Part shown: positions 7,626-58,968 of the stretch, in pieces
Numbering within the stretch: the first letter of the stretch is position 1
Layout: each line of letters begins with the position of its first letter
NCBI GenBank assembly: GCA_014534235.1
Contig: JACVRW010000002.1
Location: 27,257 to 91,256 of the forward strand
Direction of reading: 5' to 3'
From: Thermoleophilaceae bacterium
GTDB lineage: Bacteria > Actinomycetota > Thermoleophilia > Solirubrobacterales > Thermoleophilaceae
Length of the DNA stretch: 64,000 nucleotides
The notes under the pieces: generated by a model
Databases searched by the model: none
What the model saw: only the letters and a program-made list of their open reading frames with translations
Told to the model about the DNA's origin: nothing
Program-made: the position numbers and the translations under genes

Positions 7626-8348
7626 TCACCCAAGCGGCCGCTTCGCCGCCGTGCCCGGACGCCGTGGAAATCGCCCCGACGTGGGCGCCACTTTGCAGTA
7701 CACGTGCAGGTAGCGGTTGCGCGCACCCTCGAACGGCTGTACGCGCAGCACCTTCTCGAGCGCCAACCCCACCTCCCGTGCGGCCCTTCTACCCTGCTGC
7801 TCCTCGGCGGCGTCCCGCGCCCCCTTCCAGGCGACCAGCACTCCGGTAGGCCGTAGAAGCGGCGCGGCGTACTCGACCAGCACGGCAAGCGGCCCGACGG
7901 CACGAGCTGTCACGACGTCGTAGGCCTCGCGACCGCCCCCGACGGCGGGCGGCATCCGAGCCCACTCCTCCGCACGCGCCACGATGCTCCGAGCGTTGGT
8001 CGCTTGAGCCGCCTGCCGCAGACGGTCGATCACCGCGGCCTTGCGGCGCGCGGACTCGATCAAGTCGACCGCGGTGTCGGGCAGGGCGATCGCCAGGACG
8101 AGTCCCGGGAAACCGGCGCCCGCTCCCAAGTCGGCGATCCGCCTGGCAATGCGCACCCGCTCGACCTCCAGCCCGCTCAGGCTGTCGGCCACATGAGCGT
8201 CGAGCGCCGCGGCCGGGTCGGTGACCGAGGTATGCGGATCCGGCTCGTCCGCGAGGGCGTCCAAGAGCCGCGCAAGCTGCCCGGTGGCGGTGGCCGGCAG
8301 GGAATAGCGACCGGTGAGAGCGCTCAGCGTTTCTCGTGAAACGCTCAG
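7626..8348 (-). CDS. rsmG: 16S rRNA (guanine527-N7)-methyltransferase RsmG; CTG start proposed
   Basis: HVADSLSGLEV, IADLGAGAGFPGLVLAIALP, VTARAVGPLAVLVEYAAPLL. Track start (TTG, 8264) drops 28 residues LSVSRETLSALTGRYSLPATATGQLARL. Confidence 0.85.
   Translation of the reverse strand: MSVSRETLSALTGRYSLPATATGQLARLLDALADEPDPHTSVTDPAAALDAHVADSLSGLEVERVRIARRIADLGAGAGFPGLVLAIALPDTAVDLIESARRKAAVIDRLRQAAQATNARSIVARAEEWARMPPAVGGGREAYDVVTARAVGPLAVLVEYAAPLLRPTGVLVAWKGARDAAEEQQGRRAAREVGLALEKVLRVQPFEGARNRYLHVYCKVAPTSGRFPRRPGTAAKRPLG
8328..8343. promoter_or_regulatory. parS: parS-like ParB site CGTTTCTCGTGAAACG
   Basis: Inverted repeat matching the TGTTTCACGTGAAACA consensus at most positions, close to parAB and dnaA. 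Confidence 0.8.
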
Positions 8349-9046
8349 CGACCCGCGAAGCCCCGAAGCGGGCTGACCACAAGGCGCCGATCGGGCTCGT
8401 CGCCCTCGCTGTGTGTCTCCACGTCCGTTCGACCCCGCAGGTACAAATGCACGATCTTTCGCTCGGCGGCACGCATCGGCTCAAGCTCGACGGCGCGGTT
8501 GTAGCGCAGAGCCTCGGCCGCGGCGCGGTCCGCCATGCGGTGGAGAGCCGCCTCGCGCCGGTCGCGGTAGCCCGCCGCGTCCACCGTTACCTGCTTGCGC
8601 GACTCGAGCCCGCGGAACGCCGCCCGAAACGCCAGGTGCTGGAGGGCGTCGATCGTCGCGCCGTGCTTACCGATCAAGAGCCCGAGATCGTCGCCGTTCA
8701 CCGTGGCGCGAATCTCGTCGTCGTCCTCGTGTATGTCCACCGTCGCCCGCAGGCCGAGGGCCTGCACGACCCGCGCCACTACCGCGCGTACCCTCTCGGC
8801 CGGCTCCTGCGGGATCCTCTCGGCGGCGGCCCGCCAGGCATCGAGCTGGACACTCGCCCGGACGCGCGCGGGCCGGTCGGGACCGGGCTCCTCGGCGACC
8901 TCGAAGCGCACGCAGTCGGCGGTGATGCCAGGGAAGCGCGGCTCGAGGGCCTTCATCGCCTCCCACTTCGCCTCGCCAAGGCTGTCGCCCTTGGCCTCCG
9001 CCACCAGGTCCTCCGGGCGCGGCTCCTCGCTTACGGACATGCTCAC
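8345..9046 (-). CDS. jag: Jag / SpoIIIJ-associated KH-R3H RNA-binding protein
   Basis: GDDLGLLIGKHGATIDALQHLAFRA (KH) and YRDRREAALHRMADRAAAEALRYNRAVELEPMRAAERKIVHLYL (R3H). Confidence 0.92.
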   Translation of the reverse strand: MSMSVSEEPRPEDLVAEAKGDSLGEAKWEAMKALEPRFPGITADCVRFEVAEEPGPDRPARVRASVQLDAWRAAAERIPQEPAERVRAVVARVVQALGLRATVDIHEDDDEIRATVNGDDLGLLIGKHGATIDALQHLAFRAAFRGLESRKQVTVDAAGYRDRREAALHRMADRAAAEALRYNRAVELEPMRAAERKIVHLYLRGRTDVETHSEGDEPDRRLVVSPLRGFAGR

Positions 9047-9053
9047 AGCGCGG

Positions 9054-9920
9054 TCAGCGGCGACGTCCCGAGCGCTTCTTCTTCTTGCGGGGCGAGCGCG
9101 GGGGCGGGGTCTTCCGTGGGCCGCCGTTCCCGCCGCCGGCCACGGCCGCCTTAGGCTGCTCGCGGGCGCCGTCCTGAGACGCTTCCTGCTCCACTGGCTT
9201 GCCGCGCGCGGGCTTCTGGGCCCCCGCTCTGGCCTCGGCCTCGAAGTCTCGCGGCGGTGGCTTCGGGTAGAGCTTTCGGACGAGCAGCTGCTGCCCGATG
9301 GTCCAGACGTTGGTCGTGATCCAGTAGACGATGAGCCCGGCCTCGAAGTTGATGATGAAGATCACGAAGACGAACGGCAGCGCAAACATGATCCGGCGCT
9401 GCATGGGATCCGCGCTGATCGCCGTGACCGCGCTGGCCGCCAGCTGCGTGGCGATGTAGATGACGATCAGCGTGACGAGCACCACCGGCTCCCCGGTCAC
9501 CGGCTCGGTCAGGTCGGGGATGAAGAGGAAGCTCTTGTTGTCGCCGACGTCCGCTGTGAAGTCGTCGGAGCGCAGGAGATAGAAGAGCGCTATGAAGAAG
9601 GGGATCTGCAGCAGGAGCGGCAGGCACGAGCCGAGCGGATTGACCTTCTCCCGCTGGTAGAAGGCCATGACCTCCTGGTTCATGCGCTGGCGGTCGCCCT
9701 TGTAGCGCTCCTGGATCCGCTTTATCTCCGGCTGCAGCTGCTGGAGCCGCTGCATGGACTTCACGCCCTTGAACGTGAGCGGCAGGATCACGAGCCGGAC
9801 GGTGAAGGTCAGCAGGATGATCGCGACCCCCCAGGACCCCTCGAAGTTCCCGATCAGGTCGTGCCAGAAGCGGAGGACCGCGTCGCAGGCGTCGATCAGG
9901 GGTCGTAGTACGTCTTCCAT
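9054..9920 (-). CDS. yidC: membrane protein insertase YidC
   Basis: WGVAIILLTFTVRLVILPLTFKGVKSMQRLQQLQPEIKRIQERYKGDRQRMNQEVMAFYQREKVNPLGSCLPLLLQIPFFIALFYLL. Confidence 0.96.
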   Translation of the reverse strand: MEDVLRPLIDACDAVLRFWHDLIGNFEGSWGVAIILLTFTVRLVILPLTFKGVKSMQRLQQLQPEIKRIQERYKGDRQRMNQEVMAFYQREKVNPLGSCLPLLLQIPFFIALFYLLRSDDFTADVGDNKSFLFIPDLTEPVTGEPVVLVTLIVIYIATQLAASAVTAISADPMQRRIMFALPFVFVIFIINFEAGLIVYWITTNVWTIGQQLLVRKLYPKPPPRDFEAEARAGAQKPARGKPVEQEASQDGAREQPKAAVAGGGNGGPRKTPPPRSPRKKKKRSGRRR

Positions 9921-9929
9921 GAAACCGGC

Positions 9930-10193
9930 TTAGGGCTGTGGCTCCGGCCGGGGTCGGGAGCGAAACAGCTTTTGGTCCTCCACGAAGTCGACGCCGCCAT
10001 GGCTCCACGGGTTGCACCGCAACAGGCGCCAGGCGGCGAGCACGGCACCCCGCAGTATGCCGTAGCGCCTGATGGCCTGGACGGCGTACTCCGAGCAGGA
10101 CGGATAGTACTTGCAGCGGGCGGGTAGCCCGGGCGAGATCGCCCGCTGATAGAAGCGCACGGGGGCCGTGACGATCCACCGGAGCGCGGTCAC
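9930..10193 (-). CDS. yidD: membrane protein insertion efficiency factor YidD
   Basis: FYQRAISPGLPARCKYYPSCSEYAVQAIRRYGILRGAVLAAWRLLRCNPWSHGGVD. Confidence 0.95.
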   Translation of the reverse strand: MTALRWIVTAPVRFYQRAISPGLPARCKYYPSCSEYAVQAIRRYGILRGAVLAAWRLLRCNPWSHGGVDFVEDQKLFRSRPRPEPQP

Positions 10194-10573
10194 GGATCCT
10201 TCCCCTCACGAGCCAGCCCGGCCTCCCGAAGCACGGCGGCAAGCGCGTCCTCGATGGCCCGTTCGCCCCCCTCACGCGCCAGATCGCCGGCCGCCGGACG
10301 AGCCACGATCACGAAGTCATGGCCGTCAGCCAGGCCGTCGGCGCGGGCCCAGAACGCCTCGCGTAGCAACCGCTTGACGCGATTGCGCTCGACGGCGCCA
10401 CCGACCTTGCGTCCGACCGAGACGCCCAGGCGCGGCTCGGCGTCGGCGTCGCCTCGCGGAAACGCGTAGACCACGAGATAACGACTGGCGTGCGAGCGGC
10501 CCTCGCGATAGACCCGCTCGAACTCGCCACTGCGCGACAGGCGGCGGCGCTTGCGGCGCGCGGAATCGGCCAT
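10190..10573 (-). CDS. rnpA: ribonuclease P protein component
   Basis: LSRSGEFERVYREGRSHASRYLVVYAFPR...RLGVSVGRKVGGAVERNRVKRLLREAF. Confidence 0.95.
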   Translation of the reverse strand: MADSARRKRRRLSRSGEFERVYREGRSHASRYLVVYAFPRGDADAEPRLGVSVGRKVGGAVERNRVKRLLREAFWARADGLADGHDFVIVARPAAGDLAREGGERAIEDALAAVLREAGLAREGKDP

Positions 10574-10577
10574 GGGG

Positions 10578-10712
10578 CTAGGGCGTCAGCCGCTTACGGC
10601 CCTTGTCCCGGCGGCGCCCCAGCACCTTGCGGCCCGCACGGGTGCGCATGCGCGCGCGGAACCCGTGCGTCCGGGCACGCTTGCGCTTCTTCGGCTGATA
10701 GGTCCGCTTCAT
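10578..10712 (-). CDS. rpmH: 50S ribosomal protein L34
   Basis: Minus strand [44 protein letters not shown]; too short for the ORF track. Confidence 0.97.
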
Positions 10713-10981
10713 GGAGTTCGGTCGCGCGGACGGGAAAGGTGAGGCCGCGCCCAGGGCAGGGTACCAGTGGCCGCTCGAGCTCCCCGGGGATCGCGCCGTG
10801 CCGTCCAGAGAGCCCCCCGACGCTTTTCACGCGTTTTGCGCGCTGGCGTCGGCGGAGCACGCGGCGAGCCGTCAGAGCCGTTGTACACTCGCTCGCGCCG
10901 AGGGCAGTGGCCGCGGCTTCGGCAGTTCCTCCGCAGCCAACGTCAGTCCCGCCAGACCCGCGAGGAGGGTCGCAACCGCCC

Positions 10982-12307
10982 GTGCCCACGCAGCCGGACC
11001 AGCTCTGGGAAGCGATCCGCGCCGAGCTGCGTCGTGAGACGCCGGACTTCAAGTTCCACATCTGGCTAGAGCCGCTGGAGCTCGCCGCGGTAGTCGGGCG
11101 CACGCTCTACATCCGCGCCCCCGACCACATTCGAACGTCGGTGGCGGAGCGATACATGCCACTTCTGCGACGCGCGGCCGCGAGCCGCCTCGGGCATGGC
11201 GCGACCATGGAGATCGTCGACACCGGATGGCAGCCGGCCGACGAGCACGCGGCCACCGAAGCGCAGCCGCGAACCGGGCTGAATCCCAAGTACACCTTCG
11301 AGCAGTTCGTCATCGGGTCCGGCAACCGCTTCGCCCACGCCGCGGCGCTTGCGGCCGCCGAGCTGCCGGCCCAGGCGTACAACCCCCTCTTCCTCTACGG
11401 CTCGCCGGGAACGGGCAAGACGCACCTGCTACACGCCATCGGCAACTACGTGAGCCGCTACGGCGCCGGCCTTCGCGTCCGCTACACCACGATCGAGGAG
11501 TTCACGCGCGAGTTCGTCGAGGCCCTGCGGGCCCGTCGGACTGCTGACTTCAAGGACCGGTTCCGAGCAGCCGACGTCGTGCTCATCGACGACGTCCAGT
11601 TCCTCGCCGGCCGCGTCAAGACGCGTGAGGAGTTCTTCCACACGTTCAACGTACTGCTCGACTCCGGACGGCAGCTGGTCATGACATCCGATCGCAGACC
11701 GGAGGAGCTGCGGGACCTCGAAGCCCGGCTCACCGAGCGCTTCCGCTGCGGGCTTGTCGCCGAGCTCGAGGCCCCTGCTCCAGAGGTGCGCCGCGCGATC
11801 CTCCACGCGCGGGCTCGGCTCGACGGGATCGAGGTCCCCGACGAAGTGCTCGAGGAGATCGCCATGGGGGTCGGCGGCAGCGTAAGGGCGCTCGAGGGGG
11901 CGCTGATTCGCGTGGTGGCCTACGCGTCGCTCAAGGGCGAGCGTCCGACGATTGACCTTGCGCGGCATGTTCTACGTCGCCTTGATCAGGCCACAGGTCA
12001 GACCAGGCTCGACGTGATCATCGATGCCGTAGCGGCCGAGTTCCGCATAGATCGCGAGGTCCTCCTTGGACGTGACAGGCGGCCTGAGGTCTCGCGAGCG
12101 AGACAGGTTGCGATGTACGTAGCGCGGGAGCTGGCCGGGCTCAAGCCCACCGAGATCGGTCGTGGAATCGGGGACCGGAGTCACGCGACGGTAGACCACG
12201 CGATCAAGTCCGTTCGCGCCGGCCTGCACAGCGATCCGGCTATACGCAGCGCCGTCGACAACCTTCAGAAACGTTTGCAGCAACCCGCTCACGGCCGAGC
12301 CGAATGA
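10982..12307 (+). CDS. dnaA: chromosomal replication initiator DnaA
   Basis: NPKYTFEQFVIGSGNRFAHAAALAAAE...LFLYGSPGTGKTHLLHAIGNY...VLIDDVQFLAG...C-terminal HATVDHAIK; GTG start chosen (MPTQPDQLWEAIRAEL). Confidence 0.95.
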   Translation: MPTQPDQLWEAIRAELRRETPDFKFHIWLEPLELAAVVGRTLYIRAPDHIRTSVAERYMPLLRRAAASRLGHGATMEIVDTGWQPADEHAATEAQPRTGLNPKYTFEQFVIGSGNRFAHAAALAAAELPAQAYNPLFLYGSPGTGKTHLLHAIGNYVSRYGAGLRVRYTTIEEFTREFVEALRARRTADFKDRFRAADVVLIDDVQFLAGRVKTREEFFHTFNVLLDSGRQLVMTSDRRPEELRDLEARLTERFRCGLVAELEAPAPEVRRAILHARARLDGIEVPDEVLEEIAMGVGGSVRALEGALIRVVAYASLKGERPTIDLARHVLRRLDQATGQTRLDVIIDAVAAEFRIDREVLLGRDRRPEVSRARQVAMYVARELAGLKPTEIGRGIGDRSHATVDHAIKSVRAGLHSDPAIRSAVDNLQKRLQQPAHGRAE

Positions 12308-13530
12308 CAGAATCAACAGCTTCCGGACAACCCGCCACCCGCATGCCAAGCGGATCTCCAACACCTATCGACGTTTCGACAGCACCCACAACATCAATTT
12401 CGAACAGGCAGCATCAGTTGAAGCTCACCGTTTCCCGTGAAACGTTCCTCAACAGCCTTGGCGTGGCTGTGCGAGGCGCCTCCACGCGTAGCGCTATCCA
12501 GACACTGTCGGGCGTCCTGTTGAAAGTCGACGACGGGCGCGCCGAGCTCCAGGCGACCGACATGGAGCTCGGTCTGCGTGTGCAGTTGGAGGCGAGCCAG
12601 TCCTCCCCCGGGGTGGCAGTGGTCCCGGGCCGTCTTCTACTGGATGTGGTGCGCTTCCTCCCGAGGGACGAGGTCAGTGTTGAGTACCGCAGCTCACACC
12701 AGGACGTGGAGGTGATAAGCGGACCCGCCCGCTTCCACCTGCGCACGCTCCCGCCTGAGGACTTTCCAAAGCTGCCGGAGAGGCCCGGTGAGAGTGCCCT
12801 GAACATGCCGGCGGGGGCGTTCGTGGACACGATCGCCCGGGTAGCGCGCGCTGCCTCCCGGGATGAGACGCGCCCTCATCTCACGGGCGTGCTGGTCATG
12901 GCAAGCGGGCGCGAGCTGCGGATGGTCGCGACTGACTCCTACCGCCTTAGCGTAAAGGAGACGACCCTCGAATCCGAGCTAGACGGCTCTCTCGAGGCAA
13001 ATGTCCCGGCCCGCACGCTTCAGGAGCTTGGGCGTATCGCCACGGCCGGCGGCGCTGAGAGCATCGGCGTCACGGCGCTCGACAACCAAGTCGTCTTCAC
13101 GGTCGGTGACGTGGTGCTCTCCTCGAGGCTTGTGGAAGGTCGATTCCCCAACTACCAGCAGCTCCTGCCCGAGTCGTACGAACACGAGATGCGGATCAGT
13201 CGAAGCGAGCTGCTGGACGTGGTGCGCCGCGTCGGGCTCCTGGCTCAGAAGAACGCTCCGCTGCGCCTGCGCTTCTCGGAGGGGACGCTAGACGTCTCGG
13301 CTCAGACGCCAGACGTGGGCGAGGCTAGCGAGTCGCTGCCCGTTCCGTTCTCGGGCGAACCGCTCGAGATCGGGTTCAATCCGGAGTTCTTCCGAGACGG
13401 CCTCGAGAGCGCCGAGTCCGACGAGCTCGTCCTAAAGCTGATCAGCCCACTGCGGCCGGGGCTGATCCAATCGGGCGGCGAGGGCACCGGTTTCCTCTAT
13501 CTCGTGATGCCGATCCGCCTGAACGTGTAG
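12304..13530 (+). CDS. dnaN: DNA polymerase III beta subunit (sliding clamp)
   Basis: LKLTVSRETFLNSLGVAVRGASTRSAIQTLSGVLL...; ATG in ATGA overlap with dnaA gives a 38-aa extension, alternative TTG start at 12418 gives canonical N-terminus. Confidence 0.94.
   Translation: MTESTASGQPATRMPSGSPTPIDVSTAPTTSISNRQHQLKLTVSRETFLNSLGVAVRGASTRSAIQTLSGVLLKVDDGRAELQATDMELGLRVQLEASQSSPGVAVVPGRLLLDVVRFLPRDEVSVEYRSSHQDVEVISGPARFHLRTLPPEDFPKLPERPGESALNMPAGAFVDTIARVARAASRDETRPHLTGVLVMASGRELRMVATDSYRLSVKETTLESELDGSLEANVPARTLQELGRIATAGGAESIGVTALDNQVVFTVGDVVLSSRLVEGRFPNYQQLLPESYEHEMRISRSELLDVVRRVGLLAQKNAPLRLRFSEGTLDVSAQTPDVGEASESLPVPFSGEPLEIGFNPEFFRDGLESAESDELVLKLISPLRPGLIQSGGEGTGFLYLVMPIRLNV
12429..12444. promoter_or_regulatory. 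parS: parS-like ParB site CGTTTCCCGTGAAACG
   Basis: Inverted repeat near-identical to the 8328 site (one base differs); lies in the dnaN 5' coding region. Confidence 0.8.
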
Positions 13531-13542
13531 GAGCGACGCGCA

Positions 13543-14652
13543 ATGCGGGTCACGCGGCTCGAGCTCCGCGACTTTCGCAACTACAAAGGAGCCGGCGTCG
13601 AGCTGGGCCGCGGCTTGACGGTTGTGGTGGGCGCCAACGGCGCCGGCAAGACGAACCTGCTCGAAGCGCTCTACCTCGGTTGCACCGGCAAATCGCCTCG
13701 GACTCCGAACCAGCGCGAGCTCGTGCGCCGCGGGGCCTCGGTCGCCCGAGTCGTCCTGTACACCGTCGATGGCGAGGACGCTCATCGCATCGAGGTCGGG
13801 TTCGAGCCGGGCGGATCCAGGCGCATCCGCGTGGACGGCGCAAGGGTGGACGGCCTGATCGGCTTCGAGGAGCGGCCCCTCGTTGGCGTCTTCATGCCTG
13901 AGCGGCTCGAGCTGATGAAGGGGCCGCCCGCGGTCCGCCGCGCCCACCTCGACCAGGTCGTCGCGGCGCTGTGGCCGGCGCGCGCCGACGCCCGGACGGC
14001 GTACTCGCGGGCGCTCGCTCAGCGGAACGCGCTGCTTGTGCGGATACGCGCGGGACGGGCGGGGACCGGTGCCCTCCATGCCTGGGATGCCGAGCTCGCG
14101 CGGCAGGGCATGAAATTGATGGACCACCGCCGGGGCGCTGTGGAGGCCCTGCGCCCGGCCTTCGCTGAGCTGGCGGGGAGGCTCGGGCTGGCGGGCCGCG
14201 CGGAGCTTCTCTATCGCCCGCGCTCGGACGCGATCGACGCGTCCGGGTTTGCCGCGGAGCTTCGCGAGCGCAGGCAGGCGGACGTCGAGCGCGGCTTCAC
14301 GGCGCACGGGCCACACCGTGACGAGCTGTCCCTAACGCTCGACGGTAACTCGCTGCGAATCTACGGATCACAGGGCCAACAGCGAGTGGCGCTGCTGGCG
14401 CTCCTCTTTGCAGAGCGGCGGTTGCTTGCAGAGCGCCGCGGCCGCCCGCCATTGATGCTGCTCGACGACGTGATGTCGGAGCTCGACGCCGACCGCCGGG
14501 AGCTGCTCGCCGAGCTGCTCGCCGAAGGGGGGCAGGCGCTCGTGACGGCTACCGAGCCGGATCAGCTACCCGAAGCCGCGCTGGCTCGGGCGCGGCTGAT
14601 CCGGGTCGAGGAGGGGAGGATCGTGCAGCCGATGCAGGTGGTGGCGGCATGA
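13543..14652 (+). CDS. recF: DNA replication and repair protein RecF
   Basis: MRVTRLELRDFRNYKGAGVELGRGLTVVVGANGAGKTNLLEALYLGCTGKSPRT...GSQGQQRVALLALLFAE. Confidence 0.95.
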   Translation: MRVTRLELRDFRNYKGAGVELGRGLTVVVGANGAGKTNLLEALYLGCTGKSPRTPNQRELVRRGASVARVVLYTVDGEDAHRIEVGFEPGGSRRIRVDGARVDGLIGFEERPLVGVFMPERLELMKGPPAVRRAHLDQVVAALWPARADARTAYSRALAQRNALLVRIRAGRAGTGALHAWDAELARQGMKLMDHRRGAVEALRPAFAELAGRLGLAGRAELLYRPRSDAIDASGFAAELRERRQADVERGFTAHGPHRDELSLTLDGNSLRIYGSQGQQRVALLALLFAERRLLAERRGRPPLMLLDDVMSELDADRRELLAELLAEGGQALVTATEPDQLPEAALARARLIRVEEGRIVQPMQVVAA

Positions 14653-14731
14653 ACGGAGCCGCGGGCGGCGCCACGCCGCCGGCGAGCTTGGCGGGGTAGG
14701 CGCGCGCGTGGTGCCCGCTTCTCGCGCCGCT

Positions 14732-14770
14732 GTGTCAAGCAGGTGTCGTAGGAGAACCTCAAAGTGACAC
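14732..14770. repeat. GTGTCA...TGACAC inverted repeat with nested AGGT...ACCT
   Basis: Direct reading of recF-DUF721 intergenic DNA. Confidence 0.35.
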
Positions 14771-14807
14771 GCCACGCCGGCATCGCCGGGCGACCTCGGC
14801 CGAGCGT

Positions 14808-15125
14808 ATGAGGCGTCCGGCTCCCCGTCCGCTTTCGGTCGCGCTCGAGCGCGCCACCGCCAATGCCGCCCCGCACACGCTTCTCGCGCGCGTGCAGACG
14901 GCGTGGCCGGAGGTCGCGGGGCCCGCCGTGTCGGCCGCGGCCATGCCCGTCGCGGAGCGCGACGGCGTCGTGACCGTGGCCTGCGAGTCGGCGACCTGGG
15001 CTCACGAGCTCGAGCTGCTCGCCCCTGATCTGCTGGGGCGGCTCCGTGAGCGCCTCAGCTTTGGAGAAACGCTGCATATTCGCCGCCTGCGGTTTGTCGT
15101 TGGTTCGCGCCCGAACCCTGTTTGA
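14808..15125 (+). CDS. DUF721 (DciA-like) protein
   Basis: LARVQTAWPEVAGPAVSAAAMPVAERDGVVTVACESATWAHELELLAPDLLGRL; between recF and gyrB. Confidence 0.88.
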   Translation: MRRPAPRPLSVALERATANAAPHTLLARVQTAWPEVAGPAVSAAAMPVAERDGVVTVACESATWAHELELLAPDLLGRLRERLSFGETLHIRRLRFVVGSRPNPV

Positions 15126-15219
15126 CGTCACCGTCGCGCGAGCACATTTTTGCTGGATTTGCGGGCATTTTGTAACACTCGGAGTCGTCCGGGGCGGGGG
15201 CTAGGCTGCTAAGATTGAT

Positions 15220-15271: not shown

Positions 15272-15304
15272 CTTTTCATGGCGCTGGCGGCCGCAATCAG
15301 GTAG

Positions 15305-17827
<2,523 letters not shown>

Positions 17828-17829
17828 GC

Positions 17830-27679: not shown

Positions 27680-28948
27680 GTGCTGCGGATCGTCGAGCAG
27701 GCGTGGAGGAGCGACGTGGGGCGCCAGCGCGACGTGAACGAGGACGATCTCGTCGTTCGTGCGCCGTTCTTCGCGGTCGCCGACGGCATGGGCGGCGCCA
27801 AGGCCGGCGAGGTCGCCTCGGCGATCGCCACCCGCGCGTTCGACGGCGAGGCCGACTCTGGCGAGCCCGCCCAGGCGCAGCTGACCCGCATCCTGCGCGA
27901 GGCGAACCGGCGGATCTACGAGCTGGCCGTGAGGGACGCGTCCCGCCGCGGGATGGGCACGACCCTGACTGCCGCCAAGGTCCACGGGGATGAGATCACC
28001 CTCGCCCACGTGGGCGACAGCCGCGCCTACGTCCTCCGCCGCGGCGAGCTCGAGCAGCTGACCACCGACCACTCGCTCGTAGCCGAGCTCGAGCGCAGCG
28101 GCCAGATCTCCCCCGAGGCGGCCGAGCATCATCCGCAGCGCTCGATCATCACGCGAGCACTGGGCCCGGAGCCGGACGTCGAGGTGGACACGTACACCGT
28201 CGCCGGCCGCGACGGCGACGTGTTCCTGCTCTGCTCCGACGGGCTCACGTCGATGGTCTCGGATGAGGAGGTCGCCTCCATCCTCCGCTCGGTCGACTCG
28301 CTCGAGGACACCGCCGAGGCGCTCGTACGGGCCGCGAACCAGGGCGGGGGTAGGGACAACATCACCGTCGTGCTCTTCCGGTTGGGGGCGGACGTGACGG
28401 CGGGCGCCGACGACGCCGAGACGATGGCCGGTGGCCTCCGAGCAGAGGACGTGCGGGCGGCCGCCGCCGACGCGCCGACTCCCGCTCGGGCCGGCGTGGC
28501 GGGCTCACCGGTGGCCTCTGGATTGCGTGACGGCCCGGCCGACGCCACGGCCGTGAGAGGAGCCGAGCGGCGCTCCGCGCGCGCTCCTCGGCGCCGTCGG
28601 CGCCGCGTCCGAGCGGCGGCCCGGGTCGTCGTCGGGCTCGGCCTGGTGGCGGCCGCGATCGGCGGCCTCTACGCCCTCAGCCGGCACGTCTACTTCGTGG
28701 GCACGAACGACGCCGGTCTCGTCACGCTCTACCGCGGGCTCCCCTACGAGCTGCCGTTCGGCGTGGACCTCTATCGGGAGGAGTACGCAAGCGGCGTTCC
28801 AGCCAGGGCGATCCCGGCGAGCCGCCGCGAGCACGTCCTCGACCACGAGTGGCGGAGCCGCGAGGATGCCGCCGACCTGGTTCGAGCCCTCGAGCGGGGT
28901 GAGCTCGACGGAGGGGCCGGCTCCCGGACGCGCGAGGCGTCGCCCTGA
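27680..28948 (+). CDS. PP2C-family protein phosphatase (PstP-like)
   Basis: SDVGRQRDVNEDDLVVRAPFFAVADGMGGAKAGEVAS, MGTTLTAAKVHGDEITLAHVGDSRAYVLR, C-terminal TM. Confidence 0.92.
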   Translation: MLRIVEQAWRSDVGRQRDVNEDDLVVRAPFFAVADGMGGAKAGEVASAIATRAFDGEADSGEPAQAQLTRILREANRRIYELAVRDASRRGMGTTLTAAKVHGDEITLAHVGDSRAYVLRRGELEQLTTDHSLVAELERSGQISPEAAEHHPQRSIITRALGPEPDVEVDTYTVAGRDGDVFLLCSDGLTSMVSDEEVASILRSVDSLEDTAEALVRAANQGGGRDNITVVLFRLGADVTAGADDAETMAGGLRAEDVRAAAADAPTPARAGVAGSPVASGLRDGPADATAVRGAERRSARAPRRRRRRVRAAARVVVGLGLVAAAIGGLYALSRHVYFVGTNDAGLVTLYRGLPYELPFGVDLYREEYASGVPARAIPASRREHVLDHEWRSREDAADLVRALERGELDGGAGSRTREASP

Positions 28949-39669: not shown

Positions 39670-40458
39670 CTACCCGCCGCGGGCGGCCACCAGCGAGACG
39701 GCTCCGACCCCGATCCTGTAGAGGCCGAGGGCGGTGTACGCGCGCGGCCGCTCCAGCCGGTTGAGGAGCGGGGAGGCCGCCGCAGCCGAGGCGAAGGCGG
39801 CGCCGGCGCCCGCGACGGCCGGGACGCTCAGCGCGCGCCCCGCCTCCCCGCTCGCCGCGCGCAGTGCCTTCAGAGCCACCGCGCCCAGCGTCACCGGCAC
39901 CGCCGCGGTCACCGCAAGCCGGAGCGACGCTGGCCGCGAGAGTCCCCGTAGGCGACCTGCGGTCAGCGCCGCGCCCGAGCGCGACACGCCGGGGACGAGC
40001 GCGACCGCCTGGGCCAGACCCACCGCCAGGTGGTCGCCGGGCGCACTCGCGTCGCGAGCCCCGCGCGCGCGATCGGCGACGAGCAGCGCGCCGCCCGCGG
40101 CGATCTGGGCGAGAGCCACGGAGCGCGTCCCGCCGAGCCGGTCCTCGATCGGGCGCTCGAGGAGGAAGCCGGCCACCGCCGCCGGCAGCGCGGTCAGCGT
40201 GAGGGCCGCCGGGGTGGGTGGCTCACCCGAGCGCGCGCCGAGGCGGATGGCCGCCGCCGCGAGCACCGGGACCGAGCCGGCGTGCAGCGCAACCTCGAAG
40301 GACTTGCGCGCATCGCCGGGGAGGTCCGCGTAGTCCCGGCCGAGGAGCCGGCCGAGCAGCGCGAGGTGCCCTGAGCTCGACACCGGAAGCAGCTCCGCCC
40401 CGCCTTGGACGGCGCCCAGGACGAGCGCCTCGTGAACCGACGGACTCCTCGAACTCAG
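39670..40458 (-). CDS. uppP: undecaprenyl-diphosphatase UppP/BacA; CTG start proposed
   Basis: VHEALVLGAVQGGAELLPVSSSGHLALLGRLLG and ALVPGVSRSGAALTAG; track start (GTG, 40383) would delete the (E/Q)XXXE motif. Confidence 0.88.
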   Translation of the reverse strand: MSSRSPSVHEALVLGAVQGGAELLPVSSSGHLALLGRLLGRDYADLPGDARKSFEVALHAGSVPVLAAAAIRLGARSGEPPTPAALTLTALPAAVAGFLLERPIEDRLGGTRSVALAQIAAGGALLVADRARGARDASAPGDHLAVGLAQAVALVPGVSRSGAALTAGRLRGLSRPASLRLAVTAAVPVTLGAVALKALRAASGEAGRALSVPAVAGAGAAFASAAAASPLLNRLERPRAYTALGLYRIGVGAVSLVAARGG

Positions 40459-41123
40459 GCCGACTCGGCGGCGGGCGAGCCGCCACGCCGCCGCCGGGAG
40501 CGCACGACGAGGTAGATCACGCCGATCACGATGCCCGCCGCCACCGCGTAGTCGACGTAGTGGAGGCTGTCCTTCCAGCGCTCCCAGTTGTCACCGGCCT
40601 GCTTTCCGATGAAGGTGAGCATCAGCACCCAGGGGATGCAGCCGGCGAGGGTGAGCGCGCTGAAGCGCCAGAAGGGCATCCGCGCCACGCCCGCCGGCAG
40701 CGAGATGAACGTGCGGATGATCGGCAGCATCCGGGTGAAGAAGACGGTGGCGTCGCCGTGGCGCTCGAACCAGCGGTCCGCCCACTCGAGGTGGGACGTC
40801 TTTACGTGGATCTTTCGTCCGTGCTTCTCGAGGAGGTCCACCCGACCGATGTAGCCGAGCCAGTAGGCGAGCCAGGAGCCGACGAGGTTGGCGAGGGAGC
40901 CCACCGCGGTGGCGGCAAAGAGGCTGTACTCGCCGCGCGATACGTTGAACCCGGCGAACAGCATGGTGGCCTCGCTCGGCACCGGAATGCAGGCGCTCTC
41001 CAGGAGCATCAGCACGAACACCCCGGGCAGCCCCATCGCGTCGACGACGTCCACGGCGACCTGGACGATCGGGTCCGTGAGCGAGGCGATGTGCACCTGG
41101 GACAGGAGGTCGAAGCGCATCAA
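40455..41123 (-). CDS. DedA family (SNARE-associated) membrane protein
   Basis: GVFVLMLLESACIPVPSEATMLFAGF...FTRMLPIIRTFISLPAGVARMPFWRFSALTLAGC. Confidence 0.93.
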   Translation of the reverse strand: MMRFDLLSQVHIASLTDPIVQVAVDVVDAMGLPGVFVLMLLESACIPVPSEATMLFAGFNVSRGEYSLFAATAVGSLANLVGSWLAYWLGYIGRVDLLEKHGRKIHVKTSHLEWADRWFERHGDATVFFTRMLPIIRTFISLPAGVARMPFWRFSALTLAGCIPWVLMLTFIGKQAGDNWERWKDSLHYVDYAVAAGIVIGVIYLVVRSRRRRGGSPAAESA

Positions 41124-51627: not shown

Positions 51628-51666
51628 TTTGGGGCAAGGGCGTGATCACTACGCTCCCGCCGGGCA

Positions 51667-53490
51667 ATGACCCGGCCCCTCGTCCGCGTGGTGTTCGCGC
51701 TTCTCGTGCTCGTCACGATCGCCGCGTTCTTCGTGACGCAACAGTTGAAGAGCGAGTTCCCGCTCGTGCTCCGCTTCGCCACGAAGCCCTCGCAGTTCTC
51801 GCCGAACGGGGACGAGTTTCGCGACAGCTCGGTCGTCGGCTTCGATCTCTCGGAGCCCGCCGAGGTGACGTTCTCGATCACGGACAGCGAGGGCGGCGAG
51901 GTGCGCCGGATCGTCGACGAGCGCCGGCTCGCCGGCGACACCAAGCATCGCTTCCTCTGGGACGGCCGGGACGACGAGGGCCGTGTGGTGCCCGACGGGA
52001 CGTACCGGATGCGAGTCGTCCGCCGCGACGAGAACCGGGTGATCAACTCCGTCAAGACGATCACCGTGGACACGGAACCCCCGCGTGTGACGCTCGTGGG
52101 GGCGGATCCTTCGGTGATAAGGACCCGCCGCGTCGCGCAGCGCCCGCGCGTGCGCATTCGCTACCGGGGGCCTGTGAACGCCGCGCCGGAGTTCCGCGTC
52201 TTCCGCACCGACGACCGCCGGCCGCGTGTGGTGCGCCGGTTCCGCGGCGACGACACGAGAAGCGGGGTCTGGCGCGGCGAGGTCGCCGCCGGTCCGGACG
52301 CGACCAGGCCCGCGGATGACGGCATCTACGCGTTCACGGTGACCGTCCGCGACCGGGCCGGAAACGCGGCGGTCGCGCCCACCGACATCCCCACGCCGAC
52401 GGTCGCTCGCTCCGGGACCGGCGTGTCGGTCGAGAGCCTGACGCTGCGCGGACCGCTCGAGGCGGTGACCGCCGGCTCGGTCGCAGGCCTCGAGGTCGGC
52501 CCGGTCGACCGCAGATTCGACTTCGTCGTCTCGCGGCTCGGCGCGCCGAGCGAGGTGATCCGCCGCGCGCGCCGCGTCGGGGGTCGGTTCGGCTTGCACG
52601 TTCCCCCGAGGACCAGGACGGGCGTATACCTGGTCCGTGTCAGGGCGGGAGACGATCGGGCCGTGTGGCCGCTCGCCGTGGCCGGAAGCCCGCGGGGCCG
52701 GCGCGCCGCCGGCCGGCCGAGGGCGCTGGTCGTGCTTCCGATGATGACCTGGCAGGGGCTCAACCAGGTGGACGACGACGCCGACGGCTTCGCGGACACC
52801 CTGCCCGGCGGCGGCCCCATACGTCTCGAGCGCCACTTTGCGGGCGGTCGCGCGCCGCCCAGGCTGGGCGCCGAGGCCGCGCCTCTCCTGCGGTACGCGG
52901 ACGCCGCGCGCCTGGCGTACGACCTGACGACCGACGTCGCGCTGGCGGGAGGCCATGGACGGCGCCTCGGGAGCGCCCCGGGGCTGGTGTTCGCGGGGAG
53001 CGCGGTCTGGCTGCCGGAGCCGCTCCTGCGCCGCATGCGCCACTACGTCGTCGGGGGCGGGCGGGTCGCGTCGTTTGGAGCCGACGCCTTTCGCCGGGAC
53101 GTGACGCTGGAGGGTGGTTCTCTCCGCGCGCCGTCAGGCCGCGGACGGAAGGACGCCTTCGGCGAGCGAACCGAGCTGCTGCGGTCGGCGTCGTCGCCGC
53201 TGAGCGTGGTTCAGGACGACCTCGCACTGTTCGCGCGGCTGCCCGGCTCCATCGGCGAGTTCAGCGTGCTCGAGCTCTCCCGGGGACTGCCCCACGACGC
53301 GGACCGCGTCGCGGCCGCCGACTCCCGTGCGGGCGAGCCCGCGTTCGTCGCATACGAGCTGGGCGAGGGGCTCGTGATCCGAACCGGCACGCCGCAGTGG
53401 GCACGGGGGCTAACGGCCGCCTCGCGCGGCACGGACCTGCGGCAGGTGACGAACCGCGTCTGGCGCCTCCTGTCCGGCCGAGGCGGCTGA
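51667..53490 (+). CDS. secreted/membrane-anchored protein with FlgD-like Ig domains and N,N-dimethylformamidase-beta-like C-terminus
   Basis: N-terminal TM; FSPNGDEFRDSSVVGFDLSEPAEVTFSITD...LWDGRDDEGRVVPDGTYRMRV. Confidence 0.6.
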   Translation: MTRPLVRVVFALLVLVTIAAFFVTQQLKSEFPLVLRFATKPSQFSPNGDEFRDSSVVGFDLSEPAEVTFSITDSEGGEVRRIVDERRLAGDTKHRFLWDGRDDEGRVVPDGTYRMRVVRRDENRVINSVKTITVDTEPPRVTLVGADPSVIRTRRVAQRPRVRIRYRGPVNAAPEFRVFRTDDRRPRVVRRFRGDDTRSGVWRGEVAAGPDATRPADDGIYAFTVTVRDRAGNAAVAPTDIPTPTVARSGTGVSVESLTLRGPLEAVTAGSVAGLEVGPVDRRFDFVVSRLGAPSEVIRRARRVGGRFGLHVPPRTRTGVYLVRVRAGDDRAVWPLAVAGSPRGRRAAGRPRALVVLPMMTWQGLNQVDDDADGFADTLPGGGPIRLERHFAGGRAPPRLGAEAAPLLRYADAARLAYDLTTDVALAGGHGRRLGSAPGLVFAGSAVWLPEPLLRRMRHYVVGGGRVASFGADAFRRDVTLEGGSLRAPSGRGRKDAFGERTELLRSASSPLSVVQDDLALFARLPGSIGEFSVLELSRGLPHDADRVAAADSRAGEPAFVAYELGEGLVIRTGTPQWARGLTAASRGTDLRQVTNRVWRLLSGRGG

Positions 53491-53512
53491 GCCGTTTGTC
53501 ATCCTGCCACCC

Positions 53513-54865
53513 GTGACGAGACGCCGTCTTTTGACCGGCGCCGCGTTGATCGTCCTTGCCCTGGCGGGCGCGATCGGCGTGTACGCCTACAACCAGAACC
53601 AGCCAATCGAGAAGCGGGGGTCCGCCAAGGAGGAGTTCGTCGTGACGGACGCGCCGGAGCCGGAGCCCCCGCCGAAGAAGGAGAACCCCCGGCCCTGGCC
53701 GACCTATGGGTTCGACGACGCGCGCCAGCACATCTCCCCGTACGACCACCGACCGCCCTTCCGGCGCGTCTGGAAGATCGACGCCCACGACACGCTCGAG
53801 TTCCCACCCACCGTTGCCTATGGGCGGGTCTACCTGGCGCAGCAGAAGGGTATGTTCTTCGCCCTCGACGCGGAGACCGGGAAAGTCCACTGGAAGCACT
53901 CGCTCCGGCGCTGCGCGGCGTCCTCGCCGACCGTCGGCAACGGGCTCGTCTATCAGTCCTACATGCACCCCGTGGAGTGCCTGCAGGACCAGCCGGGCGC
54001 CGACGGCTTCCTGCTGGCCTGGGACGCCGATACCGGCAAGGAGCGGTGGCGCTTCAAGTCGGCGCCGATCGAGTCCTCCCCGCTCTTGCACGGGAAGCGG
54101 CTCTTCGTCGGGAGCTGGGACCACAACGTCTACGCGATCAACGCGAACAACGGGAGGAAGATCTGGAGCTTCCAGGCCGACGACCAGGTGAATACCTCGG
54201 CCGCCTACTGGAAGGGGCGAATCTTCATCGCATCCGACGGCGGCACGCTCTACGCGCTGAACGCGAGGAACGGCAAGCTCATCTGGAGCGCCCAGTCGAA
54301 CGCGACCCTCGGCGGGCGCGAGTTCTGGTACGCCACGCCCACGATCGCGTACGGGCGGGTCTACATCGGCAACACCGACGGCACCCTGTACGTGTACGGC
54401 GCCAAGAGCGGCAGGCTGCTCTGGGCGCGGCCGCTCGGCACATACATCTACGGGGCCGCCGCGGTCTACCAGCGCAAAGTGTTCGTCGGCACCTACGACG
54501 GGAAGCTCTTCGCCCTCGACGCCGCGACCGGCGACACGGTTTGGGAGATCCCGGCAAGGGGCGCCGTTCACTCGGCGCCGACGGTCATGGATGGCCTCGT
54601 CTACTACGCGGTCTGCTCGACCTGCGGGTCTGAGGCGCAACGCGCGGTCGCCCCGGGCCCCGACGCCACCTACGCGGTGCGCGCCCGCGACGGCAAGCGC
54701 GTGTGGCGCTTCCGAGACGGTAAGTACGCCAATCCCGTCGTGGTCGACGAGGAGCGCGTCTACGTGACGGGCCGGTCGCACCAGTACGCGCTGGCGCCAC
54801 GGGAGCCGAAGGCGGCGCGGGCCGGTCGGCGGGAGGATCGCTCAGAGCGTACGCGCGGTCGCTGA
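53513..54865 (+). CDS. PQQ-like beta-propeller repeat protein, membrane anchored
   Basis: Repeats GRVYLAQQKGMFFALDAETGKVHWKHSL, KRLFVGSWDHNVYAINANNGRKIWSF, GRVYIGNTDGTLYVYGAKSGRLLW. Confidence 0.9.
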   Translation: MTRRRLLTGAALIVLALAGAIGVYAYNQNQPIEKRGSAKEEFVVTDAPEPEPPPKKENPRPWPTYGFDDARQHISPYDHRPPFRRVWKIDAHDTLEFPPTVAYGRVYLAQQKGMFFALDAETGKVHWKHSLRRCAASSPTVGNGLVYQSYMHPVECLQDQPGADGFLLAWDADTGKERWRFKSAPIESSPLLHGKRLFVGSWDHNVYAINANNGRKIWSFQADDQVNTSAAYWKGRIFIASDGGTLYALNARNGKLIWSAQSNATLGGREFWYATPTIAYGRVYIGNTDGTLYVYGAKSGRLLWARPLGTYIYGAAAVYQRKVFVGTYDGKLFALDAATGDTVWEIPARGAVHSAPTVMDGLVYYAVCSTCGSEAQRAVAPGPDATYAVRARDGKRVWRFRDGKYANPVVVDEERVYVTGRSHQYALAPREPKAARAGRREDRSERTRGR

Positions 54866-55014
54866 CACGCAAGGGTCCGCGGAGCGCGCAGGGCGGGGTA
54901 ACGAAGCGGGCCGGTCGCCGCTCGGTGGACCGGCTAGACGGCGCCTAGCTGAAATAGGCGACCCCCGGGAGGATCACCACGCAGCGCACGGGGTCGCCCT
55001 CGTGGAGGAGGGCC

Positions 55015-56424
55015 TCACCCGGGCCGAGGTCGATCCAGCGCACGCGCCGAATCTATCGCCAGCAGCGCGGCGATCAGCGCGCCCGTCAGCGGCCACACCA
55101 GGTAGTAGTTGTTGAACGTGCGCGCGATGAACATCAACCACAGGATCGAGATCGCGAACGCGGCCGCGCCCACCCACAGGTCCCTCGCCCGGTTCTGCGC
55201 GTAGAGAAGCCAGGCGGTGAGCGGAACCCACGTCAGGAGGGCGACCAGCGCGAACGGGTAGTCGCCGTATCGGTCGTCGATGATCCCGAGGCGGACGAGG
55301 ATCGACGACAGCCCGTAGCCAACGATCCGGTAGGTGCCGGCGCCGTAACGGATCGTGTCGTCGTAGAAGGCGACGGGATCGGCGACCAGGAACGGCAGCA
55401 CGCCGGCTACGAGCACCCCTCCGAACCCGAGCGCGGCGCGCTTCAGCTCGTGCCGGTCGGCGCTCGCCTTGAGGAGCATGAGGGCCAGGAAGGGGACCGC
55501 CACCAGCGCGAACTGCTTGAGGAGCACGGCGCCGGCCAGCGCCGCCCCGGCCCACCCGAACCGCCGGCGGGCGACGAGCCCGAAGGCGACCACGAGCAGC
55601 AGCATGCTCGGGGCGTCGTTCTGGCCGAACCACGCGGAGCGCACCGCGATCGGGTTGCAGACGAGCAGCGCGCCGAGCCCGAGGCGCCAGCCGAGCGGGC
55701 CGGGGAAGAGCAAGGCCGCCGGAAGCATCGCGAGCGTGGTGAGCAGCACCAAGAGGCGGTAGTCGTCGAACGGTTTCGGGAGGAGCTGCCAGGCGGCACC
55801 CGTGATCACGGCCCCCGGGAAGTAGGCGAAGTGCTCTAGCGCCACCTCGCGCTCGCGCACGCGCTCAGAGACGGTCCCGTCTCGCGTGTAGAAGCGCTCG
55901 ACGCCGGAGTCGCGGTAGTCGTGGCCGTACGGGTTGTCCAGATGGAGCACCAGGTCTCCGCCGAGTTCGATCTGGTACGTGGAGTCGTTCGTGAAGAACC
56001 ACGGCGCGGTGGACTCGCGCAAGCCCAGCTGGAGGAGCGTCGAGGGCGCCATCAGGAGCACGCCCACGACCAGCACGAGCCCAATGCCCGCCCAGCGGGG
56101 AAGCGCTCGGGCGCCGCGCGGCCGGGCGAGCAGTAACGCCGCGACCGCGCCGCAGAAGAGCGCCGCGACGAACGCGGCCGCCCTGGCGATGCCCACGTCC
56201 CACTCCTCGCCGGCCGCGCGCACGAGCGGCGCAAGCGGTCCTTTCGGCTCGATCGTCCCCGGGCGAAAGCGCCAGGGATCGGAGCCGAGCTCCGGCAGCG
56301 TGATGGCGATGAGGGCGAAGAGGACTCCTACGAGGGCGAAGGCGCCGACCCTGCCAACCTCCTCGCGTCGGACCGGCCGTGCCTCCTCGCGGACGGCGGT
56401 CGGCTGCCTCAGCGGGATGCTCAC
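55015..56424 (-). CDS. multi-TM glycosyltransferase-like (GT87-type) membrane protein
   Basis: Many TM helices; SAWFGQNDAPSMLLLVVAFGLVARRRFGWAGAALAGAVLLKQFALVAVPF; GTG start in GTGA overlap. Confidence 0.7.
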   Translation of the reverse strand: MSIPLRQPTAVREEARPVRREEVGRVGAFALVGVLFALIAITLPELGSDPWRFRPGTIEPKGPLAPLVRAAGEEWDVGIARAAAFVAALFCGAVAALLLARPRGARALPRWAGIGLVLVVGVLLMAPSTLLQLGLRESTAPWFFTNDSTYQIELGGDLVLHLDNPYGHDYRDSGVERFYTRDGTVSERVREREVALEHFAYFPGAVITGAAWQLLPKPFDDYRLLVLLTTLAMLPAALLFPGPLGWRLGLGALLVCNPIAVRSAWFGQNDAPSMLLLVVAFGLVARRRFGWAGAALAGAVLLKQFALVAVPFLALMLLKASADRHELKRAALGFGGVLVAGVLPFLVADPVAFYDDTIRYGAGTYRIVGYGLSSILVRLGIIDDRYGDYPFALVALLTWVPLTAWLLYAQNRARDLWVGAAAFAISILWLMFIARTFNNYYLVWPLTGALIAALLAIDSARALDRPRPG

Positions 56425-57977
56425 GGGGTGACTCTGCCGCGCGGGGCGGTCGGACCGCGCCCGTCGCCGGCGCTCGCCTTCACTGCCGGCGCCCGCTGGC
56501 GTGCGGTGGGTACGGCGCGTCCCTCGGCCCAGGTGAGGTACCCCGCGCCGATCGCGAGCACGAGCCAGGTGATCGGGTCCTCCAGGAAGCCGCTGTAGAA
56601 GAGCGCGTGCACGAACAGCCCCAGGAACGAGGCTAGTAGCGCGAGGCCGAGGGGCTCGTCGCGGCGCCGGACGGCGTCGATCAGTCGCACGCCCCCGGCC
56701 AGCAGCCAGACGTAGAGCGCCAGTCCGAGCACACCGAGCTCCGCAGCCACCGTCAGCGGCGTCGTGTGCGAGACGAAGTTCGGCGTGGGGCGATCGCTGC
56801 CCGCGAGCACGCGGCTCGCGCGAGGTTGGCCGCCGATGCCGACCCCGATCAGCGGATCGCTCTCGATCACGCGCACGGTGTCCTCGACCCGCTCCGTGCG
56901 GTCGCTCGTGATTTGGTTGAGCGACTCGCCGTCGATCAGCTGGACCGCAACGTAGCCGCCGGCGGCAAGCGCGGCGGCGACGGTCAAGACCCCGACGGCG
57001 AGGCGAACGCGGCGCCCGCCCGTGGCGAACGCGAGCGCCAGCGTCACCACGAAGAGCGCGGCCATGCTCGACTGCGAGTAGGAGAACAACAGGCCCGCCC
57101 ACATGAGCGTGAGCGCGGCCACGAGTGCCCAGGCTCGCCACCGCCCGGCGCCGAGCAGCGCCAGCACGATCCCCATGCCCAGCACGAGATGGCGCCCGTA
57201 CAGGCTCGGGTCGCCGAAGAGCGAGGTGACCCGGAAGTAGTCCGTGTTCGCGTTCGAGATCTCGAGGTTCGGCGCGTAGAAGAACAGCTCGTGTGTCGCG
57301 GCCTGCCAGAGGCCCACCGCGGCGAACAGGCAGGCGAGCCCGATCGCGCCCGCCGCTAGCGCGCGGGGGACGGCGCCCGCGAACTCGGCCCTCGCCACCG
57401 TGGCGAGGAGCGCGACGAACGGGAGCGTAAAGAAGGCGAGGAGGTTGGCGCCGGCCTCGAGGTCGTCGGCCCAGAGGAGCGAGCAGCAGGCGAACGCGAA
57501 GAACCCGGCCGCCGGAAGCGCGACCGCCCGCGGCAGCGGGCGCAGCTCCGCGCCGCGCACGGCGCGCCAGGCGAAGGCCGCCACCGTGGCGGCGAGCACG
57601 AAGTACAGCGGGAGAAGACGGCCAAGCCGACCGTCGTCGGCGATCGATACCAGGAAGCGGTTCGAGGTGTCGAAGTCGAGCGGCGGGCGAAATGGCGCCG
57701 CGATCAACACCGCGACCGGCACCAGCGCGGGGCGCCGCGCGAGCACGGCCCCGGCCGCGCCGACGAGCACCAGCCCGACCGCCGCCGCCCCGGCGCCTGT
57801 CGCGCTGCCGAGCCTCTCGAACGGACCCGAGCCGAGGGACAGCGCCAAGCCCGCCTCCGCCAGCACCAGCACCGCGAGCCCGCCCGCAAAGGTGGGCCGA
57901 CCACGGCCCAACAGCACCAATACCGACCCAAGCGCGCCGCCGACCGCGGCAATCTGGGCGGTGTCCGGGTGCTCCAT
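56421..57977 (-). CDS. O-antigen ligase family membrane protein
   Basis: Multi-TM; LFSYSQSSMAALFVVTLALAF, PLIGVGIGGQPRASRVLAG...NFVSHTTPLTVAAELGVLGLALYVWLL. Confidence 0.85.
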   Translation of the reverse strand: MEHPDTAQIAAVGGALGSVLVLLGRGRPTFAGGLAVLVLAEAGLALSLGSGPFERLGSATGAGAAAVGLVLVGAAGAVLARRPALVPVAVLIAAPFRPPLDFDTSNRFLVSIADDGRLGRLLPLYFVLAATVAAFAWRAVRGAELRPLPRAVALPAAGFFAFACCSLLWADDLEAGANLLAFFTLPFVALLATVARAEFAGAVPRALAAGAIGLACLFAAVGLWQAATHELFFYAPNLEISNANTDYFRVTSLFGDPSLYGRHLVLGMGIVLALLGAGRWRAWALVAALTLMWAGLLFSYSQSSMAALFVVTLALAFATGGRRVRLAVGVLTVAAALAAGGYVAVQLIDGESLNQITSDRTERVEDTVRVIESDPLIGVGIGGQPRASRVLAGSDRPTPNFVSHTTPLTVAAELGVLGLALYVWLLAGGVRLIDAVRRRDEPLGLALLASFLGLFVHALFYSGFLEDPITWLVLAIGAGYLTWAEGRAVPTARQRAPAVKASAGDGRGPTAPRGRVTP

Positions 57978-58011
57978 CAGGAGGGGACAGCGTAGATGGC
58001 GCGGCGCACGC

Positions 58012-58968
58012 TCAGCCTGTCGTTACCGCCCCCGCTCGCGCGTCGAGCCGGCGGTTGTACGCCTCGGCGGCCTCCCGGATTCCCTCTCCCCGCTGCGGGA
58101 GGGCCTGCTGGCGGGCATGCAGCAGGTAGCGGCGCGGGTCGTGCCCGGGCAGCACCGCGGCCGCCGCGGCCCGAACCAGGTACGCCCAGGTCCAGCACAG
58201 CCTCCAGGCGAGGCGGGTGAGCGGCATGTGGTGCTTGCGGAAATAGAGGTCGCGGCCCCGATGGAACTCGACGATGCGCCGGCGCATCGCGGCCGCGTCG
58301 GTCGAGAGCTTGTCGTGGTGGACGGCCTGCGCGTGCGGGACGAACAGGATCCGCCAGCCCGCGTCGCGGAGGCGCTTGCAGAAGTCGGTCTCGTCCGAGT
58401 AGACGAAGAAGGCGGGATCGAGCCAACCGACCTGCTCGGCCGCCGCCCGGCGCACGAGCAGCGCGCTCGACTGCGCCCAGCCGACCTCGCGCACGTCCGT
58501 CCCGCGGCTCTCCACGGCCACGCGGTCGTGCAGGAACACGGCGGCCGCGAGCGCCCACGCCAGGTCCGGCAGCCGCCAGGCGCAGGCCGTGGGTCGACCG
58601 TCGCTCGTAAGCAGCTGGGCGCCGGCCGCCGCCGCGCCGGGGTCCGAGTCGAGCGCCTCGAGCAGGGCGCGCGTACAGCCCTCTCTGACCTCGGTGTCCT
58701 CGTTCAGCAGCAGGCAGTAGCGCCCGTGTGCCTCGTTCAGCAGGCGCGAGTCGTTCTCGGCCTTGCCGGCCCGCCGGTCGAGCGCGATCAGCCGGACGTC
58801 GCTGTTCAGGGCGCGCACGGCCTCCGCCGAGCCGTCGTCCGAGGCGTTGTCCAGGACGAGGACCTCGCGGGTGACGCCGGCGGGGTGGGTGTGCTCGATC
58901 GCGTCCAGGCACGCGAGCAGCTCGTCCCGCCCGCACGTGTTGACGACGCAGTAGGACAGCTCGGTCAG
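58012..58968 (-). CDS. glycosyltransferase family 2; CTG start proposed
   Basis: LTELSYCVVNTCGRDELLACLDAIEHTHPAGVTREVLVLDNASDDGSAEAVRALNSDVRLIALDRRAGKAENDSRLLNEAHGRYCLLLNEDTEV; GGAGGTGGCGCC-CTG. Confidence 0.88.
   Translation of the reverse strand: MTELSYCVVNTCGRDELLACLDAIEHTHPAGVTREVLVLDNASDDGSAEAVRALNSDVRLIALDRRAGKAENDSRLLNEAHGRYCLLLNEDTEVREGCTRALLEALDSDPGAAAAGAQLLTSDGRPTACAWRLPDLAWALAAAVFLHDRVAVESRGTDVREVGWAQSSALLVRRAAAEQVGWLDPAFFVYSDETDFCKRLRDAGWRILFVPHAQAVHHDKLSTDAAAMRRRIVEFHRGRDLYFRKHHMPLTRLAWRLCWTWAYLVRAAAAAVLPGHDPRRYLLHARQQALPQRGEGIREAAEAYNRRLDARAGAVTTG

Follow-up and report, generated by a model that had tools for sequence, protein, structure and literature searches.

Where does translation of a gene begin when none of the usual start codons stands at the head of its conserved protein? 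The question arises at three places in a 64,000-nucleotide stretch of DNA from a Thermoleophilaceae bacterium (assembly GCA_014534235.1, contig JACVRW010000002.1, positions 27,257 to 91,256; hereafter the window), which has a G+C content of 71%. For rsmG, uppP and a family-2 glycosyltransferase gene (GT2), the preliminary description had proposed that each needs N-terminal sequence upstream of its listed start, and that each frame reaches a CTG lying over the TGA of the previous gene in the same four-nucleotide geometry as overlaps that carry ATG, GTG or TTG. We found that both proposals hold: the coordinates match, conserved protein would otherwise be lost, and all three overlaps, on the minus strand, have this geometry. 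Comparison of the sequences with those of relatives supports CTG as the start of the three genes, and it is probable that they start there, most likely by termination-reinitiation, in which the ribosome that ends the upstream gene begins the next one. The junctions and their flanking genes are the following.

8345..8348, minus strand: CTGA overlap, putative CTG start of rsmG (8348-8346) over the TGA of the KhpB/Jag gene (8347-8345)
7626..8348, minus strand: rsmG (16S rRNA methyltransferase G), 240 amino acids from the CTG; PF02527, E 5e-31
8345..9046, minus strand: upstream gene, KhpB/Jag-like RNA-binding protein (KH and R3H domains); PF13083, PF01424
40455..40458, minus strand: CTGA overlap, putative CTG start of uppP (40458-40456) over the TGA of the DedA gene
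39670..40458, minus strand: uppP (undecaprenyl-diphosphatase), 262 amino acids from the CTG; PF02673 at residues 11-254, E 6.8e-43
40455..41123, minus strand: upstream gene, DedA/VTT-domain membrane protein; PF09335
58965..58968, minus strand: CTGA overlap, putative CTG start of GT2 (58968-58966) over the TGA of the GT4 gene
58012..58968, minus strand: GT2, 318 amino acids from the CTG; PF00535 from residue 14
58965..60134, minus strand: upstream gene, GT4 glycosyltransferase; PF13579, PF13439
58975..58980, minus strand: Shine-Dalgarno sequence GGAGGT, 6 nucleotides before the GT2 CTG; duplex with the anti-Shine-Dalgarno sequence, -16.1 kcal/mol

Each of the three frames is free of ATG, GTG and TTG for a long way on both sides of the CTG. 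For rsmG this run extends from the upstream stop at 8483, 44 codons before the CTG, to TTG 8264, the first listed start, whose use drops 28 residues; the uppP run starts at a stop that likewise lies 44 codons before the CTG and ends at GTG 40383, the first start listed, whose use drops 25 residues, the QGGAELLP stretch included; and the GT2 run starts at a stop 38 codons ahead of the CTG and ends at its first listed start, GTG 58818, with 50 residues dropped. In none of the three can a canonical start supply the conserved N-terminus. Read from the CTG, UppP aligns to PDB entry 5oon from residue 10, and its QGGAELLP stretch matches solved undecaprenyl-diphosphatases, while residues 2-50 of GT2 show coding-type evolution in a comparison of substitutions with CTGA-bearing relatives.

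The start regions of these genes were compared across 31 Solirubrobacterales/Thermoleophilaceae-like genomes (the family sample), together with that of a UDP-glycosyltransferase gene (UGT), added as a fourth gene after it had been picked up in the window genome through the same CTGA pattern. When a locus was scored as CTGA-only if no ATG, GTG or TTG stood in frame in the 25 codons preceding a conserved anchor, CTGA was the only nearby start candidate in 28 gene-genome cases (uppP 6, rsmG 8, GT2 3, UGT 11), and in 26 of these a canonical start was absent within 45 codons as well. Moreover, the place of the CTG is conserved for rsmG and uppP, with other start codons in the same column. In the rsmG column 10 family genomes have CTG, 2 have TTG and 1 has ATG, and genus g3 alone holds all three codons; uppP has CTGA in many orthologues from sister genera and in most relatives, with GTGA in a single relative and, in genus g11, a CTG with an 8-nucleotide overlap, that is, in another frame relation. 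The CTGA of GT2 is kept in both other searched genomes of the genus, and other genera mostly have ATG or GTG at about that place or a few codons from it. Outside the family, 61 of 68 uppP loci had a canonical start no farther than 25 codons away, and 1 had CTGA only. By its UppP relatives, the window falls in the order Solirubrobacterales, near Thermoleophilaceae. One uppP locus, L178 (CAMCVN010000017.1), is titled Bifidobacterium breve and resembles Solirubrobacteraceae loci; it is probably mislabelled. In the rsmG of genome G025 (L060), the stretch that leads from the upstream stop to the conserved N-terminus holds neither ATG, GTG or TTG nor CTGA.

The comparison of the window genome with its CTGA-carrying relatives also places the beginning of the conserved protein at the CTG. 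On passing from the sequence upstream of the CTG into the stretch bounded by the CTG and the first canonical start, amino-acid identity rises from 0.13 to 0.74 in UGT, from 0.17 to 0.52 in uppP, from 0.30 to 0.49 in rsmG and from 0.55 to 0.83 in GT2, the step being smallest for the last two. At the same time, third-position bias in the downstream frame is slight upstream of the CTG, and after it third positions are those that vary most. The rise in identity, together with this bias, indicates that translation of the downstream frame starts from the CTG or very close to it.

In the mechanism that we propose, a ribosome ending the upstream gene at TGA would stay on the mRNA, move back one base and, using the ordinary initiator tRNA with its CAU anticodon, restart on the NTG triplet of the overlap. 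With the ribosome already positioned by the stop codon, the identity of the first base in the start codon would matter less, and CTG could be tolerated beside ATG, GTG and TTG. We infer that the CTG is decoded as formylmethionine, that these starts are coupled and that the overlap rescues a weak codon. Only one tRNA-Met was found; its anticodon is CAT, and its anticodon stem holds three G-C pairs like that of initiator tRNA, so that there is no sign of a special CAG initiator. A search of approximately 780 kb, about a quarter of the 3.2 Mb genome (a fragmented metagenome assembly of 197 contigs, 84% complete), yielded no initiator-like tRNA whose anticodon is CAG. The gene for initiation factor 3 (IF3) begins with GTG in five relatives, the only ones read, and nothing unusual was noticed there.

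The same starts could be reached by ordinary direct initiation aided by a Shine-Dalgarno sequence, the overlap with TGA being no more than the usual packing of operons. This would suit GT2, whose orthologues in each of the genus's three species pair strongly with the anti-Shine-Dalgarno sequence (-8.7 to -16.1 kcal/mol), a strength that may suffice without coupling, and it would suit possible CTG starts that lie away from a four-nucleotide overlap, in RsiG and in a TrmA-like gene. However, a Shine-Dalgarno sequence is missing at the CTG of rsmG, of uppP and of most UGT genes, where median pairing (-3.2, -4.6 and -3.4 kcal/mol, respectively) is little or no better than at random in-gene sites (-3.5), compared with -5.6 to -6.4 at the A, G and T versions of the NTGA start in the window genome. 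A weak codon without a Shine-Dalgarno sequence fits re-initiation by a ribosome that the upstream stop has put in place, and we consider direct initiation an unlikely account of these starts, though the most serious of the alternatives.

Far less probable is a programmed ribosomal frameshift that joins the upstream and downstream genes and needs no downstream start codon at all. The downstream frame is indeed open into the upstream gene, but frameshifting would have to occur in four unrelated gene pairs, the different frame relation of the g11 uppP does not suit it, relatives have ATG or TTG in the very column of the rsmG CTG, and upstream of the CTG the downstream frame is unconserved in rsmG, uppP and UGT (0.13-0.30) and only partly conserved in GT2 (0.55). 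Equally improbable is that the missing starts are artefacts, either of assembly and indel errors or of a downstream TTG or GTG that is the true start. The fragmentation of the metagenome assembly into 197 contigs lends this some weight, as does a frameshifted GDPD gene in genome G011 that gave a false CTGA case; yet the same CTGA recurs in independent assemblies from several genera, and the region before the downstream start encodes conserved protein with family-defining motifs.

Several observations weigh against termination-reinitiation at CTG, or against the reach of the data that favour it. The four genes were chosen for their CTGA in the window genome, which introduces ascertainment into the family counts; nor are the species independent. 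In rsmG and uppP the stretch ahead of the first canonical start brings only a weak gain in coding potential; this test has too little power for such short gaps, and the comparative tests were used instead. CTG-like starts without the four-nucleotide overlap seem to occur, in RsiG (G000) and the TrmA-like gene (G011), and the overlap may therefore not be required. Finally, an excess of CTGA at gene junctions, which had been set beforehand as a test of the proposal, was not found. Junctions were surveyed in the approximately 780 kb from the window genome, in 796 kb from G011, in 200 kb from each of G008 and G030, and in 978 kb of loci belonging to sister families, with gene calls from a self-trained codon model; TGA stops were counted, 1-nucleotide overlaps were set aside, and the other two frame relations served as comparison. 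In the window genome the NTGA relation held A 47, G 75, T 12 and C 21 times, against A 1 and 3, G 7 and 6, T 2 and 3, and C 29 and 26 in the other two relations. A, G and T are thus enriched before TGA, and the frequency test fails for C, with 21 against 29 and 26, because most CTGA junctions arise by chance and true CTG starts are too few; consequently, counts alone are unable to prove the use of CTG. Within the window, the 15 junctions of NTGA geometry comprise 5 CTGA, 4 ATGA, 3 GTGA and 3 TTGA, and the CTGA at 17824 and at 28945 (plus strand) are incidental, since an ATG follows directly.

A control came from another actinobacterium, with 750 kb of the Streptomyces clavuligerus plasmid pCLA1 (71.5% G+C). 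Of 39 CTGA junctions in Streptomyces, 0 had a coding-like stretch without a canonical start; such cases made up 6 of the 35 CTGA junctions in the window genome, 5 of the 49 in G011 and 2 of the 47 among the sister families (Fisher p = 0.009 for the window genome versus Streptomyces). Three of the six window-genome hits were unconvincing on inspection, and p = 0.10 with the three supported cases only. Taken as individual cases, plausible CTG starts number about five in 780 kb: rsmG, uppP, GT2, UGT and perhaps a glycoside hydrolase. We estimate the share of CTG among coupled starts with a four-nucleotide overlap at about 3-4%, and scaling would put the CTG-started genes of the whole genome very roughly at some 20. 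The suggestion that re-initiating ribosomes accept any NTG was hence too broad: CTG is interchangeable with ATG, GTG or TTG in the rsmG and uppP columns, but it is a small minority and most CTGA are incidental. In the same way, the suggested systematic misannotation stands insofar as standard starts truncate these proteins, and would be a fair description only at the level of a few genes per megabase. Gene finders generally accept ATG, GTG and TTG only, so that RsmG, UppP and MiaA of this lineage would be annotated without their N-termini, which sometimes include catalytic motifs.

In G011, convincing CTGA cases were miaA, a YfcE-like phosphoesterase and rsmG; the miaA product has a P-loop, and its frame offers no canonical start for 77 codons. 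The glycoside hydrolase mentioned above, a family 3 gene at C6:9402, has a plausible CTG start, but the CTG is not conserved. Other CTGA candidates were rejected or are doubtful: a response regulator (G000:C6:53288) has an ATG upstream, a secreted protein (C159:27226) has a GTG upstream, and the GDPD CTGA of G011 (C24, L192:1255-2072) is a false junction within a gene split by a frameshift. Likewise, a methyltransferase-like frame (C47:6600) lacks Pfam support, and the domain of a sulfatase at C39 begins after the canonical start. Two further loci lie apart from the CTGA pattern. At L268:6355-6858 (G000:C50, minus strand), a membrane-protein-like frame with a strong coding signal follows a TAG stop and has no ATG, GTG or TTG for 132 codons and no Pfam match. 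The NadA gene at L256, near 9986 (G000:C38), is interrupted by an in-frame TGA that immediately precedes a conserved stretch, possibly a mutation or an assembly error.

Could starts at gene junctions be relaxed beyond CTG in this family? In genus g4 the uppP junction is ATAG instead of CTGA in 4 of 4 genomes (L005, L010, L014, L016), with ATA as the best start candidate, and in G011 both gmk (C19:206595) and the GDPD frame (L192:1848-2072) have an ATAG overlap and no canonical start nearby. The enrichment of ATAG in overlap geometry in G011, 8/41 versus 6/84, was weak and not significant (p = 0.066). We tentatively entertain, as a possibility on the doubtful side, a family with generally relaxed junction starts (CTG in CTGA, ATA in ATAG, perhaps ATC) in which it would be the stop codon, and not the start triplet, that fixes where translation resumes. 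The possible ATC start concerns ybeY of G011 (L370:17376-17771), which has no ATG, GTG or TTG for 65 codons, matches the YbeY domain from residue 37 and has as its best start candidate an ATC with an upstream GGGAG.

How does this compare with what is known? The infC gene of Escherichia coli starts with AUU, and such cases are single genes with IF3-dependent autoregulation; a near-cognate start is kept by selection there as it appears to be here, where the genes are unrelated and have in common the geometry of the junction. CUG starts are near-absent elsewhere, as only 2 of 61,358 reconstructed ancestral AUG starts switched to CUG across 36 prokaryote groups (PMC5622118). Those rare cases likewise have CTG starting ordinary protein genes, whereas here it does so in at least four genes, kept across genera, mostly without a Shine-Dalgarno sequence and in stop-start overlaps. 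A survey of coupled pairs published in 2023 (PMC10666635), which deals with bacteria and archaea, describes the -4 nucleotide overlap as ATGA or GTGA and has start codons end in G; CTG does not appear in the text that was searched. The four-nucleotide stop-start overlap and the operon arrangement of those pairs are shared by rsmG, uppP and GT2. Their start is a conserved CTG in the window genome, with ATG, GTG or TTG at the overlap only in some relatives, which lowers their membership in the described class and leaves the claim that they work alike unaffected. In the open library searched, we came upon no paper that describes CTGA starts conserved throughout a family of bacteria; what appears new is this conserved CTGA coupling, CUG starts and -4 nucleotide coupling being already known. 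The pattern is kept across related genera of a little-studied lineage of soil actinobacteria.

For translational coupling, the rsmG series within one genus, with CTG, TTG and ATG at the same overlap, offers a natural test of whether the overlap or the start triplet decides re-initiation. The beginning of rsmG carries one more feature.

8329..8342, plus strand: parS-like site GTTTCTCGTGAAAC, within rsmG, starting directly after codon 2; found by pattern match, with 0 expected in shuffled sequences

The window has two such parS-like sites (GTTTCNCGNGAAAC), at 8329-8342 and 12430-12443. The first of them encodes the VSRET residues of RsmG, and a parS-like site inside rsmG recurs at many rsmG loci of the family.

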